From Maridesulfovibrio salexigens DSM 2638 (GTDB lineage Bacteria > Desulfobacterota > Desulfovibrionia > Desulfovibrionales > Desulfovibrionaceae): a stretch of 64,000 nt of DNA. Below are positions 20,277 through 28,686 of this stretch, in pieces. The stretch covers positions 1,245,501 through 1,309,500 of the forward strand of contig NC_012881.1 of NCBI RefSeq assembly GCF_000023445.1, in the 5' to 3' direction. The stretch's first letter is position 1; each line of letters begins with the position of its first letter. The notes under the pieces were generated by a model. It searched no databases. It was not told the DNA's origin and worked only from the letters and a program-made list of their open reading frames with translations. Made by a program: the position numbers and the translations under genes.

Positions 20277-22679
20277 ATGTTAAAAATACGTACTCAACTT
20301 ATTCTGGGGTTCGGAGCTGTCCTTACCCTGCTTCTAGTTCTAGGAGGAAGCACCTATGTTCTGAATTTGAAAAGTATAGCAACTTCCAAAGAGATTGCTG
20401 AGGACGATGTTCCGGGTGCGATCTGTTATCTTCTGCTACTTGATAAAATTGGTGATATGCAGACCTGTGTTCTGGAATATTTGTCTGGTGAAGTCGAAGA
20501 GGCTCAGGGGTTTAAAGAAAACCATAGGGAATTGAATTCGCGCTTTGCGGCTTTAGTCAAACTGGAGTCAAATCATTCCGAAGAAGTTGCAAAGGTTAAA
20601 CAGATATCGGGACTTATAGATTCTTTTGCAGATTCTGCAGAGAGGGAAGTTTTTCGAGCCTACAATCCCGAAACGGAAAAGTGGGCTTACGGCAAAGCGA
20701 AAGAAATTGAAGAAACTCTGGGTACTGAGTTGGAAGATATTCTGGATCGGTTAAAAGACGAAGAATATGAAAACGGGATGAAGGCCGCCAGCATTGATGA
20801 GATAAGAAACCAGTTTTTACCAGGCTTGAAATACTATTATGAAATGGTTGATGAGACAGAGGATATGCTTGGCTCAATCAGAGGTTATGTCTCTGGGACA
20901 GAAACCAAGAAATCTTTCGAAAAAGATGCAGATTCGTTTCGTGCGTTTCTTAAAGAAATAAAGAAATTCGATCATGCGCCTGAAGAGCTGGTCGAATTTG
21001 AACGTATAGAAAAAATATTTCTGGCAATAGAATCTGAAGCGCAGAATATTTTTAACAAGTATGATCCACAGTCCCGCCAGCGTGCGATTGATGCCGCCGA
21101 TGTCATGGAAAATGATATTTTCGACAAGTTGGAAACTATCTTGGACACTTCTGCACACGAAGAAGTTGCGGAAGCAAAAACTGCACTTTTTGATTTAGAG
21201 GATTCTTTAAATAAAGTGAATTTGGTGGTGATTGTTGTAACTGCTGTTTCATTTTTGCTCGGTGTAATAATCACTTTGTTGATCACCAGACGCCTCAACT
21301 GTCAACTCGGAGGAATCCGTGACTTTGCCGGTAAGGTTGCAGCCGGAGATCTGAATGCTAAGCTTGAGGGTGATCATCCCGCAGAGTTGGAGTCAGTTAA
21401 GGTTGAAATTGAACGGATGGTAATTAATCTCAAGCAGCGTTTGGGCTATGCTCAGGGTGTACTGGACGGAATCTCTGCACGTTTTCCTGTATTGACTCTT
21501 GATTCCGATGGAAAAATTAATTTCACAAACAAGATGTTGCTGGATGCGTACGGGCATAGCGGAAGTCCTGAATCCTATAAGGGTAAAATGCTTTCCGCCA
21601 TTGATGCCGATTACCATAATTCTCCTGTTTTGGAGGCTTTGAAATCGCGTCGGATGGCACAGCAGGAATTGACTGTTCGAGCCGGTAATGAGGATCATAT
21701 CCTAGAAGTAAACGCCAACCCAGTTTTTGATTTGGATAACAATCTAATGGGAGTCTTCTGTGTCTTTTATGATCTTACTCCCATTAGAAAACAGCAGAAA
21801 GAAATTGAAGATAAAAACATATTGATGGCGGATATTGCAGAGCAGGCAACAGGAATAACCGATCTGGTTTCCCGTGAGTCCGATAAGTTGGCTGTGCAGG
21901 TCTCTCAAACAAGTCAGGGCGCGCTTCGCCAGAGTGACCGTACTTCTGAAACTGCTACGGCTATGGAAGAGATGAATGCCACTGTCATTGAGGTGGCCCG
22001 CAATGCCTCGGATGCAGCACATAATGCATCATCTGCAAGGGATGCTGCTTCCAGCGGAGCAGACATGATTCAGAGTCTGATTTCATCCATTACTGATGTT
22101 TATGCCGAGATGGATCTTCTGCGCAATAATATGGATGATCTCGGTACTCAGGCACAGGACATCGGAGCGATCATTACCGTGATCGAAGATATCTCTGACC
22201 AGACTAACCTGCTGGCATTGAATGCTGCTATTGAGGCTGCCCGTGCTGGGGAGGCCGGACGCGGTTTTGCCGTGGTTGCGGACGAAGTACGCAAGCTGGC
22301 AGAAAAGAGTATGGATGCCACCAAGGAAGTTGCTCAGGCTATCTCAAATATTCAGATCGGAACTACGGCGAGCATAGAAGCCACCGGAAATGCGACCCAA
22401 TCCGTTGAGCACAGCACAAAGCTTGCTGAGGAATCCGGCAAAGTTCTTGATTCTATTGTGGGAATTGTCGGTGAAACCGCGGTTCAGGTAGAATCCATTG
22501 CTGCTGCCAGTGAAGAACAGTCCGCAGCCAGTGAAGAAGTTACTCATGCTATGGATGAGATAAACACAATCTCAGGTGAGACAGCTAAATCCATGCAGCA
22601 TGCGGCATCGACAGTTGAATCTGTTGCCCATAACGCTCAGGAGTTGAAATCACTGATCTCACAGTTGAAGAAAAGCTAA
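20277..22679 (+). CDS. Methyl-accepting chemotaxis protein with HAMP and PAS domains
   Basis: 800 residues. The first membrane segment is at about 8-28. A long helical extracytoplasmic domain spans about 29-312 (helical-bundle type by its length and heptads). The second membrane segment is at 313-337 and a HAMP domain at about 338-390. A PAS domain lies at about 400-500 and the MCP signalling domain at about 520-800, with the conserved hairpin [46 protein letters not shown] precedes the ATG. No cheA, cheW or cheB is beside it, so it feeds a chemotaxis core encoded elsewhere, probably together with the CheV proteins at 47783 and 54757. The ligand is unknown. Confidence 0.93.
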
Positions 22680-22741: not shown

Positions 22742-23872
22742 TTAAAATGCCTGTCGCAACCAAACTCTAAAAACAGGATCAACAATCCCCCAGTGTTTGT
22801 CGGCATTCTGCTCAATCAAATCCTGTTCACTGAGAAATTTGCGGGCTGATTGTACTCCGCCGAGAGTAAGGTTGTAGGCTTGCAGGAAGCTGTTTGAAGT
22901 GAGGGCCGCTTCTCCTTCAGCAGCAATGGCGCGGAGCAGCTTGAGCTGTCCTGTACTCATTCCTTGAATGATTCCTTGATACCCGTAGCGTTCGTTTTCA
23001 AGCAGAGTATCGTATGCTTTTGCTACGTCCTGTTTGGTGCATTCTTTATCGCAGAGTTCAAAAGTTCGGTAGGCCAGAGCTTGCAGGTAATAAGGATATT
23101 GTTCGACCTTCTGCGTTATTTCTCTGGCAATGTCTTGAGAACATTTTTTACCGGCCTGCGCGAATTGTTCTACTATAAATTCTACACTTTCATCTTCCGG
23201 CAGGGGGGTGAGTTCCATCATGATTGCACTCTGGTAAAAAGGTCTGCCCCTGTTGTTGAAAATATCGAGCAGTACCCGGCGGCGGCTGCCAAGAAAAATG
23301 TATGAAGCTTTGTGGCGTTGGATGTGTTCACGAAGCAGGGCTTCTACACGAGGCTCCTTAATGTCTACTATATCCTGAAATTCATCCAGAGCAATGCAGA
23401 CCTGAAAGTCTTCCTTTTCGAGGAAACTACCCACTTCATCCATTATCGTTTCGAGGGCAACTATGGGATCAAGCTGACGTTTAGCCAGTTGCACTTCTAT
23501 TGATGGAATCCCGGTTACCGGATCAAATGTGAATGATGTCTGAATTGACGGGAAGTGGGCCAGCCACCTTTTTCCCTTTTCAAGTATGGATTCGTATTCA
23601 TCCAGTCCGTTGATGATAGCTTTTGCTAACCTGTGTACCAGATCTTCCACTGAAACCAGTCGCATGAATTGGGCGTAAATCACGCAGATATTTTCCGAAC
23701 TCAGACTGTGCTGCACGCGCTTGACCAGCGAGGTCTTGCCGTAGCGTCTGGGTGCGAAAAGAACAGCGTTCATGCCGTTTCGACCGTGACTGGTAAGTTC
23801 GCGCAATTCATCCACGCGGTTACAGAATGGTTGGTCCGGTTCCAGAATGTCGGTATGAAATGGGTTTCTCAT
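22742..23872 (-). CDS. Archaeal-type AAA ATPase (ATPase_2 family) with C-terminal winged-helix region
   Basis: 376 residues from ATG 23872. The N terminus (MRNPFHTDILEPDQPFCNRVDELREL) and the Walker A variant FAPRRYGKTSLVKRV are typical of the PF01637-like STAND/AAA ATPases. Walker B is ICIALDEFQDI. The C-terminal part (about 300-376) reads as a winged helix (MSTGQLKLLRAIAAEGE...SVQSARKFLSEQDLIEQN). The biological role of the family is poorly known. No ribosome site precedes the ATG, and the region upstream is filled by ACTATTGT-type repeats, so the mRNA may be leaderless and the gene may control itself. It lies 100 bp downstream of hypF on the same strand. Confidence 0.85.
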   Translation of the reverse strand: MRNPFHTDILEPDQPFCNRVDELRELTSHGRNGMNAVLFAPRRYGKTSLVKRVQHSLSSENICVIYAQFMRLVSVEDLVHRLAKAIINGLDEYESILEKGKRWLAHFPSIQTSFTFDPVTGIPSIEVQLAKRQLDPIVALETIMDEVGSFLEKEDFQVCIALDEFQDIVDIKEPRVEALLREHIQRHKASYIFLGSRRRVLLDIFNNRGRPFYQSAIMMELTPLPEDESVEFIVEQFAQAGKKCSQDIAREITQKVEQYPYYLQALAYRTFELCDKECTKQDVAKAYDTLLENERYGYQGIIQGMSTGQLKLLRAIAAEGEAALTSNSFLQAYNLTLGGVQSARKFLSEQDLIEQNADKHWGIVDPVFRVWLRQAF

Positions 23873-23966
23873 AACTATTGTTTTTAAATTATTGTAAAGC
23901 AATAGTCAAAACTATTGTAAAACAATTATTAAAGTACAATAGTAAGGATTATTCAAAAACAATAGT
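23873..23966. repeat. Array of seven ACTATTGT/ACAATAGT motifs before the ATPase gene
   Basis: Forward or reverse copies of ACTATTGT start at 23874, 23888 (variant), 23899 (variant), 23911, 23922 (variant), 23936 and 23959. Spacing is mostly 11-14 bp, about one helical turn. Two adjacent inverted pairs (23888-23906 and 23911-23929) sit between an outer pair, AACTATTGTTTTT and AAAAACAATAGTT. A minus-strand TTGACT (23909-23904) and TAAAAA (23886-23881), spaced 17, lie within the array, so the repeats overlap the likely promoter. A cooperative operator is the simplest reading. Confidence 0.75.
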
Positions 23967-26420: not shown

Positions 26421-27353
26421 TCAACCGAATCTGCTTAGGAAGGATTTGATTCGTCCTTTTACAAAGCGGACGGGTTCAAATTCCATGGGACTCAGTTGTT
26501 CTGGAACTTTGAAATCAGTAGTGTCGAAGTCGTCAGGAGGTTCGATTACATATTTAATGTGGTCAGGATTATAGCCGTGTATCTTCTGGTGTGCGGTTTC
26601 CCGCCAGAGCAGAATCTTTTTGGGGCTTAAGCCAAGCAGCATGTATATGGCGGTATCAAGGGCATAGGGATTGGTCGATCCTGCCAGCAAACTCATGGAG
26701 TAGGGCTTGCCGCTGATCGGTCCGGTTTCATGCATAGGATAAATTGCATCCATTAAGTTAAAGGCCAAGGGCATGGATTGGACCACTTCAATGATCATCT
26801 TTTCCATTAGTCCGGGTGTTTCACCAAAGCGGGTATGAGCGTAAGCCTTGCGGAAACCTACCACTGTTCCGAACAGGTTTTTCACTGCCCCGGTGACTAC
26901 GAATTGACCATGAGCCTTGAGTTTGGGGACATTTATGATCATGTCCGATTCAAGGGCATCACGCGAGATACCGATGGTTTCTCCAAAAGAAAGTTTGAGC
27001 GGGGTAGGGCGGCCGAGGCTTTTGGGTTTCAGTCCCATCTTTTTCAAGCCGTCAGTCATGCCGATGGCTTTGGAAACCTGTGCAGCACTACCGTAGCCCG
27101 GAGAGTCCGCTACTGTGATCTGCGCTCCGCAATCCTTGAGGTAACGGCAGAGCGAAAGAGTCACGTTCGGATGGGTACAGGCCAATGGATTCTTAGAGGA
27201 AACAAGATTGGGCTTAACCAGCACTTTGGTGCCGGGGTGAACTTTTAGTCCGCATTCTTCCACGGTCATAGCGACTGCCGTATCCAGAAATGTGGATTCA
27301 TATTCAAGGATACGGAAAAAGGCGACAGGGATTTTCGGATTATTACTGCTCAT
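26421..27353 (-). CDS. DUF362 family protein
   Basis: 310 residues. The family pattern is clear: GTKVLVKPNLVSSKNP, ACTHPNVTLSLCRYLKDCGAQITVADSPGYG, DMIINVPKLKAHGQFVVTGAVKNLFGTV, and an Asp in LMDAIYPMHETGP. DUF362 proteins are of unproven function; some carry ferredoxin domains, but this one has none and only scattered cysteines. It has no signal peptide. Its start overlaps the end of the Lys-rich membrane protein gene by 11 bp, so it belongs to the TauE transcription unit. Confidence 0.88.
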   Translation of the reverse strand: MSSNNPKIPVAFFRILEYESTFLDTAVAMTVEECGLKVHPGTKVLVKPNLVSSKNPLACTHPNVTLSLCRYLKDCGAQITVADSPGYGSAAQVSKAIGMTDGLKKMGLKPKSLGRPTPLKLSFGETIGISRDALESDMIINVPKLKAHGQFVVTGAVKNLFGTVVGFRKAYAHTRFGETPGLMEKMIIEVVQSMPLAFNLMDAIYPMHETGPISGKPYSMSLLAGSTNPYALDTAIYMLLGLSPKKILLWRETAHQKIHGYNPDHIKYVIEPPDDFDTTDFKVPEQLSPMEFEPVRFVKGRIKSFLSRFG

Positions 27354-28686
27354 CTGGTTTTATCTCTTTTTTGGCCGCTCGTTTAACTTTTTCCGGTTTT
27401 GTTGCTGATGGTTGGGCAGCGGGCTTCTTTGTCTGTTTTTGGCCTGGTTCCGGTTTGGGCTTGGTTGCAGCTTTTTTTCTCCCCTGCTGAGTAGTTACTT
27501 TTTTGCCTTTGTTTTGTGAAGTGGACTCTTTTACTTTTTTGGCGGAGGCTGTTTTTTTGACAGGTTTGCCGCTAGCATCCTTTTTAACCGGACGCTTTTT
27601 TGGTTCTGCTGGTTTTACAGCCTTTTTCTTTGCGTGCTCAGCCGGATTCGGTTTTGCTGCGGATTTCTGAAGGGCAGTCTTCTTTTTGAGCACTTTCTTG
27701 GCCTGCTGCTCCCCTGATGGTGCCGCAGCTTTTTTAGGACTCGGTTTTGCTGCTTGGGCCGGGGCGGATTTTTCCTTTTTCCCAGCTTTTTTTGCAGCTG
27801 TGGCGGCGGTCTCTTGTTTGAGTTTCGGTTCAGGTTTCTTTTGCAGTGCTTCTTTGTTGGTTCGCGTGCTTTTGACTTTTTGGCCCTGATCCCCTTTTTT
27901 CTTTTTTGCGGCCTTAGCTTTTGCTGCTCTTTTTTTCTTGGCGGCAAGGGCATCCTTTTGAGCATCCGATAATTCTCGGCCTAGTCTGATGCGTACGCTT
28001 TTCATGAAATCTTCAGAAGCTAGGGTACCGAAGAAAAAGAAATTGGACATATCCCAGAGGACGGCAAATAGAAGTATACCTATTGTTCCTAATGCAAGAT
28101 ATGCGAAGCCTGATGTTTGGCTGACCGGTAGTGCTTCTCGCAGGTTATAGGCAGGAATGAGCAGTTTTTGACGGATTTTATTGATCAGCATTTCCGCCTT
28201 ATCTTGCTTTTGAGAAGCCATTGCACCGGACATTTTTTGCAGTATCCGGTTAAGGTAATACATAGCCTGAATTGCAGGCATGGAATATCTGCGCTCTAAG
28301 GCATCAAACCTGTTGAAGTATAGCAGGTGAATATCATCCATGAAAAATTTGAGAGTGTAGCCGAGGTCGCCCTGAATGTTTATCTTTCGACCTTTTGGAG
28401 TGACGGTCAGCTTATTGCGCAGGAACATCATTGTCGCGATTCGGGCTTCATCGTTGTCCCTGAAGACTAGTGTTATATTGAAATTTTTGCCGAGAAATTG
28501 TTTGTTCTCAGCTTCAATTATTTTGAAGGGAGGTTTTATTCCTTTGCGCAAAGAGTTGAAGGTGGATTCCATGGCCTCAAATCCGTCTGCACCTTTAAAG
28601 AAAGGCAGATGCATGGCCCCGACTATAAGCATGCTGGAAATGAAAAGCATGGCCGCGATGATGAGGGTTTTAATAGAGTAGGTCAT
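27343..28686 (-). CDS. Two-pass membrane protein with histone-like Lys/Ala/Pro-rich tail
   Basis: 447 residues, family not recognised. A membrane segment lies at about 7-25, a folded extracytoplasmic region of about 170 residues comes next, and a second membrane segment follows at about 196-225 (YLALGTIGILLFAVLWDMSNFFFFG). The last 200 residues are low complexity, almost wholly Lys, Ala, Pro, Thr and Gln, with KKAAKP-like repeats reminiscent of histone H1. With both membrane segments counted, this strongly basic tail should be cytoplasmic. Its ATG overlaps the stop of the TauE gene (ATGA, 28683-28686). The TauE protein has a strongly acidic loop, so contact between the two is plausible. Confidence 0.8.
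   Translation of the reverse strand: MTYSIKTLIIAAMLFISSMLIVGAMHLPFFKGADGFEAMESTFNSLRKGIKPPFKIIEAENKQFLGKNFNITLVFRDNDEARIATMMFLRNKLTVTPKGRKINIQGDLGYTLKFFMDDIHLLYFNRFDALERRYSMPAIQAMYYLNRILQKMSGAMASQKQDKAEMLINKIRQKLLIPAYNLREALPVSQTSGFAYLALGTIGILLFAVLWDMSNFFFFGTLASEDFMKSVRIRLGRELSDAQKDALAAKKKRAAKAKAAKKKKGDQGQKVKSTRTNKEALQKKPEPKLKQETAATAAKKAGKKEKSAPAQAAKPSPKKAAAPSGEQQAKKVLKKKTALQKSAAKPNPAEHAKKKAVKPAEPKKRPVKKDASGKPVKKTASAKKVKESTSQNKGKKVTTQQGRKKAATKPKPEPGQKQTKKPAAQPSATKPEKVKRAAKKEIKPDEQ

Follow-up and report, generated by a model that had tools for sequence, protein, structure and literature searches.

What recognizes the compact repeat array that runs up to the start codon of a solitary ATPase gene in Maridesulfovibrio salexigens DSM 2638, and to what end? 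The gene lies in a 64,000-nucleotide stretch of contig NC_012881.1 (hereafter the window), and a preliminary description of that stretch had suggested that the ATPase might bind the repeats itself, or that the array could be an origin- or recombination-like site. The first suggestion is strongly supported by the fixed geometry of the array among relatives, by its covariation with the recognition helix of the ATPase and by a near-single operator site per genome. Judged from these sequence comparisons, the array is probably a private autoregulatory operator that the ATPase would bind via its winged helix, most likely repressing its own gene.

The ATPase gene and its upstream array

The array is real and lies where the preliminary description had placed it. 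Six of the 34 matches to ACTATTGT in the window (at most one mismatch) fall within 23874-23966, four of them exact and two with one mismatch, in both orientations; six matches in 93 bp have a Poisson probability of about 5.5e-11, given a shuffle rate of 40.55 per 64 kb. Over the 100 bp preceding the ATG, the repeat z is 12.2 relative to dinucleotide shuffles of the same AT-rich stretch. On the gene (minus) strand, the array is resolved into two complete 33-bp units with a period of 37 bp and one 19-bp dyad, each unit consisting of three 7-bp half-sites in the layout -> N5 <- N7 <-. The seven copies counted earlier become eight if degenerate half-sites are included, and the structure is more regular than had been noted. 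The features are as follows:

22742-23872, minus strand: ATPase gene (376 aa, including the stop codon), with a PF01637 ATPase_2 AAA+ domain and a C-terminal winged helix
23874-23906, minus strand: operator unit B, ACTATTG-CTTTA-CAATAAT-TTAAAAA-CAATAGT (-> N5 <- N7 <-), separated from the ATG by 1 nt
23881-23909, minus strand: candidate promoter with the best conservation, TTGACT-N17-TAAAAA, lying within unit B and having a weak -10; a prediction read from orthologue sequences
23911-23943, minus strand: operator unit A, ACTATTG-TACTT-TAATAAT-TGTTTTA-CAATAGT, with the geometry of unit B and 37 bp upstream of it
23948-23966, minus strand: distal 19-bp dyad, ACTATTG-TTTTT-GAATAAT, with two half-sites

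The encoded protein matches Pfam PF01637 with 38.5 bits, above the curated cut-off of 33.2; in alignments, the GK of Walker A is invariant and its T nearly so, and DE-Q follows Walker B. The AAA+ domain and winged helix take up all 376 residues, without a separate sensor domain. In the AF2 model (pLDDT 93), the recognition helix of the winged helix comprises residues 337-349, and the ATPase stretch T336-L-G-G-V-Q-S-A-R-K-F-L347 has Ser at position 342. The ATG (23872-23870), separated from the last half-site of unit B by a single T, is backed as the start codon by a conserved N-terminal xNPF motif.

The closest solved folds are 2qen (Z 28.5) and 2fna (Z 26.9), which align over 330 residues, nearly the full length. 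These are the archaeal-type PF01637 ATPases PAB2304 and SSO1545, respectively, with which the protein shares an AAA+ plus winged-helix fold and, by Pfam and by profile (E 2e-21 and 4e-15), the family itself. They are followed by Orc1/Cdc6 initiators (Z of approximately 18-21; 1w5t 21.4, 2qby 18.5) and by STAND proteins, and plant NLR and CED-4 STAND folds also match. The likeness to Orc1/Cdc6, which likewise combine AAA+ and winged-helix domains and have a repeat array beside their own gene, is one of fold only, and we claim no membership; unlike the initiator arrays, those described here are on bacterial chromosomes, overlap the promoter, occur at one site per genome and diverge in sequence among paralogs. 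Candidate status as a defense system was rejected, the PADLOC and NCBIfam matches being sub-threshold only.

STAND regulators such as MalT and IniR resemble the ATPase in joining a P-loop ATPase to a DNA-binding C-terminus, but they differ in having extra sensor domains and other target genes (the maltose system and iniBAC, respectively), whereas the only detected target of the ATPase is its own gene. The nearest described regulator is mycobacterial IniR, which carries a MalT-like sensor domain, targets iniBAC and has an ATPase domain that has been compared with SSO1545 (PMC5760070). No operator, DNA target, regulon or function for PF01637 ATPases was found in the full-text literature searched, largely non-subscription papers; relative to that literature, a self-operator shared across the family and read by a recognition code is provisionally novel.

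The TTGA[CT]T-N17-TAAAAA promoter candidate is conserved among orthologs and would set the +1 at or next to the ATG. It has a poor -10 and is absent from the list produced by a promoter consensus scan, and the position of the promoter of this gene is uncertain. The missing ribosome site of the preliminary description was borne out, as neither the window gene nor any of six orthologs showed a Shine-Dalgarno-like sequence; outside the Bacteroidales, 44 of the 56 relatives scored have one. A leaderless mRNA is plausible for the window gene and fits with the promoter position and the absence of a Shine-Dalgarno sequence. Of the 41 non-Bacteroidales loci with a recognizable promoter, 31 have an operator that covers the -10 of the best sigma70-like candidate, and the operator often itself supplies the -10 (TATTAT, TACAAT, TAGAAT).

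Operator geometry among relatives

The possibility, raised in the preliminary description, that relatives lack the array fails decisively. The array is retained in six relatives of the genus, with unit B kept in all six orthologs, and three of these orthologous genes are at other chromosomal places with unrelated neighbors; the array therefore travels with the gene and not with hypF. Homologs with dyads at the matching place, spelled with other letters, are found in the Desulfobacterota, Nitrospirota, Chlorobi, Bacteroidales, Elusimicrobia, Aquificota and others. The upstream sequences of 95 relatives contain more repeats than those of 91 neighboring-gene controls (p=3e-11). Using exact 6-mers with no motif assumed, a direct spacing of 14 was found in 32 of 79 loci versus 4.7 expected, and inverted spacings of 11/13 and 25/27 were found in the same 79 loci at six to eight times expectation; the direct and inverted spacings together yield the layout -> N5 <- N7 <-. 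Among 139 fresh loci, a spacing of 14 is present in 52 and of 15 in 48, with other spacings in about six, and the control upstream regions of neighboring genes have spacing 14 in 1 of 91. The spacing of 15 is an N6/N8 variant that is common in Bacteroidales.

Each half-site reads N1N2N3-TAA-Y, in which the TAA-Y end is shared and the first three bases vary (CAA, GAA, GTA, GCG, TAG, TTG and others). A clear operator was not seen at three loci (L053, L054, L095). In a Bacteroidota subgroup (L098, L116, L119), the recognition helix is SSSL and the half-sites are of the TACGACA/TGCGACA type, off the TAA-Y core; this subgroup possibly uses a different recognition register. A distant homolog with 20% identity (L018, genome G006) carries TTATACTT as direct repeats upstream of its start codon, so the self-operator habit may extend beyond the subfamily.

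Each of ten genomes whose operators are of the CAA class has the 33-bp pattern (at most three mismatches) at the ATPase gene, and elsewhere in the ten genomes there is a single match in all, with three mismatches, overlapping registers and both strands aside. The M. salexigens genome has one paralog (47% identity), with the differing motif GAATAAT. A genome-wide regulon was sought and rejected: apart from the flanks of the paralog itself, neither motif of the two ATPases occurs elsewhere in the genome above a reversed-pattern control, so the search for further arrays proposed in the preliminary description returned nothing above chance. The predicted regulon is the ATPase gene itself.

The gene is set in the chromosome between unrelated genes. 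A conserved operon partner was rejected as an explanation, because the hypF, glycan, outer-membrane and enolase/uvrA-side locations have different neighbors, and no nuclease, recombinase or partner gene was found to travel with the ATPase at the sites examined. In the window, an 800-aa methyl-accepting chemotaxis-type protein (20277-22679) separates a response regulator from the ATPase; several relatives have hypF and the response regulator as immediate convergent neighbors. Positions 27343-28686 encode a protein of 447 aa whose N-terminus is of membrane type and whose very long tail is rich in Lys, Ala and Pro.

At the paralog loci L177 and L178, and also at L019, the gene is flanked on either side by a full 33-bp GAA-class operator, the two being oppositely oriented; at L020, the downstream copy follows the terminator and is situated between a convergent gene pair. 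Just after the hypF stop codon in two relatives, G004 and G008, there is a three-dyad relic of the array (L158, L159) without an ATPase gene there, the two having a common end point, CAATAGTCAG; G004 is without any family member. A history for the hypF site was considered and set aside: the relics share their end point, yet G004 and G008 are not sisters on the hypF tree, the inner branches of which are poorly supported.

Half-site bases and the recognition helix

Lys and Arg usually pair with guanine and Gln with adenine. From the first loci, before any new ones were read, we fixed the rule that Lys or Arg at residue 342 corresponds to N1=G. The held-out set consisted of the 75 of 141 loci that had an operator above the preset score (about half had none), after removal of proteins at least 85% identical to the training proteins or to each other (90% had been planned). 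N1 was G in 28 of 32 proteins with Lys/Arg-342 versus 7 of 43 others (75 held-out loci, p=4e-10). Some Bacteroidales members are exceptions, having N1=G without Lys or Arg at 342. A second rule, that GG at 338-339 corresponds to N2=A, held weakly, with p=0.04 at the preset cut-off and 0.008 at a score of 17.5.

Across 104 loci, residue 342 was the alignment column most strongly associated with N1=G (p=1.9e-15, against 3e-9 for the next one); for N2=A, the top four columns were 336, 341, 339 and 338, each of them at the recognition helix. Gln-341 was present in 36 of 36 loci with N2=A, and N2=A was found in none of 37 loci without Gln. Column p-values are inflated by shared ancestry, and a tree-aware test was run on a tree of the ATPase domain only. 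Residue 342 and N1 underwent concordant changes on a shared branch five times versus 1.24 expected (p=0.0018), and never opposite ones. For N2, the test gave p=0.01 for residue 338 and p=0.03 for residue 339; it was not significant for 341 with N2 (0.64) or for 338 with N3 (0.09). The operator letters thus covary with the recognition helix of the ATPase, most clearly for N1 and residue 342 and more weakly for N3. Selection for differing triplets among the paralogs of one genome found no evidence, 2 of 22 pairs sharing a triplet versus 1.95 expected.

Probable self-regulation and its alternatives

We propose that the ATPase (ATPase_2/MNS-type) docks by its C-terminal winged helix on the 33-bp, three-half-site units, which overlap the promoter of its gene and, at the window gene, extend as far as the start codon. 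Several protomers would occupy each unit, and the two and a half units would favor cooperative loading. The recognition helix would read the first two specificity bases, residue 342 contacting N1 and residues 336-341 N2. Autorepression is the most likely outcome, as deduced from the -10 overlap by itself, since bound protein on the -10 would exclude RNA polymerase; activation or a non-transcriptional role are the alternatives. The bound ATPase would cover the -10 and start region and shut down its own transcription until released by its nucleotide state or by some ligand. Operator and protein would drift together, so that every gene keeps its own address. Controllers of toxin-antitoxin and restriction-modification systems also have private, fast-diverging operators that overlap their own promoters; the ATPase shares this private own-promoter operator and differs in being a single solitary protein, with no partner gene at the sites examined.

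The ATPase might bind the array for a purpose that is mainly not transcriptional, the array serving a mobile or selfish gene as a cis site (terminal repeats, recombination, replication) or being an Orc1/Cdc6-like initiator site. We consider this unlikely. The proximity of Orc1/Cdc6 as the nearest fold relatives beyond the family would suit it, as would the full operators in opposite orientation at both gene ends in the paralog and its two orthologs, the gene-less relics at hypF, and the patchy presence of the family at varied places, with some members on plasmids and on two phage-like contigs. Both-end arrays were nonetheless rejected as a general rule: a downstream operator with a matching triplet occurs in only 3 of 52 loci, all in the single paralog clade, and the window gene, which lacks transposon-type matching repeats at its two ends, is not among them. 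The solitary state of the ATPase and the operator's coverage of the -10 at most loci where a promoter can be recognized also argue against such a role, and the origin- or recombination-like site of the preliminary description finds little support at the window gene, given one site per genome, no partner gene and unrelated chromosomal neighbors. The flanking paralog operators and the gene-less relics do not follow from plain autorepression, however, and they leave a low probability for a mobile or bridging role. In one rather doubtful form of it, the ATPase would mark and bridge the DNA of its own gene, which in some members has operators at both ends; gene and address would then travel together as a minimal selfish or mobile unit that is self-addressed, its specificity diverging so that paralogs avoid cross-talk.

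A palindromic promoter array alone names no binder, and a different, unlinked transcription factor could in principle bind it and control the ATPase gene. This is highly improbable, as the half-site bases covary with the ATPase's own helix, the motifs differ among family members while the geometry is fixed, the motif is essentially found once per genome, and the array relocates with its gene to unrelated places. Chance is a near-negligible explanation: local AT richness and the relic arrays beside hypF might suggest an AT-rich accident or a transposon remnant, but the excess of repeats over dinucleotide-preserving shuffles and retention in six orthologs speak against it, and we take conservation of the geometry across phyla as refuting it.

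PF01637 ATPases are widespread and often multicopy, and a family-wide self-operator would be their first concrete, testable activity. The recognition code would make operators predictable from sequence for hundreds of uncharacterized members, and the series of operators and helices provides natural material for studying the co-evolution of a protein and its DNA site. Used as a reporter, the ATPase's own promoter may offer a route to what PF01637 ATPases do.
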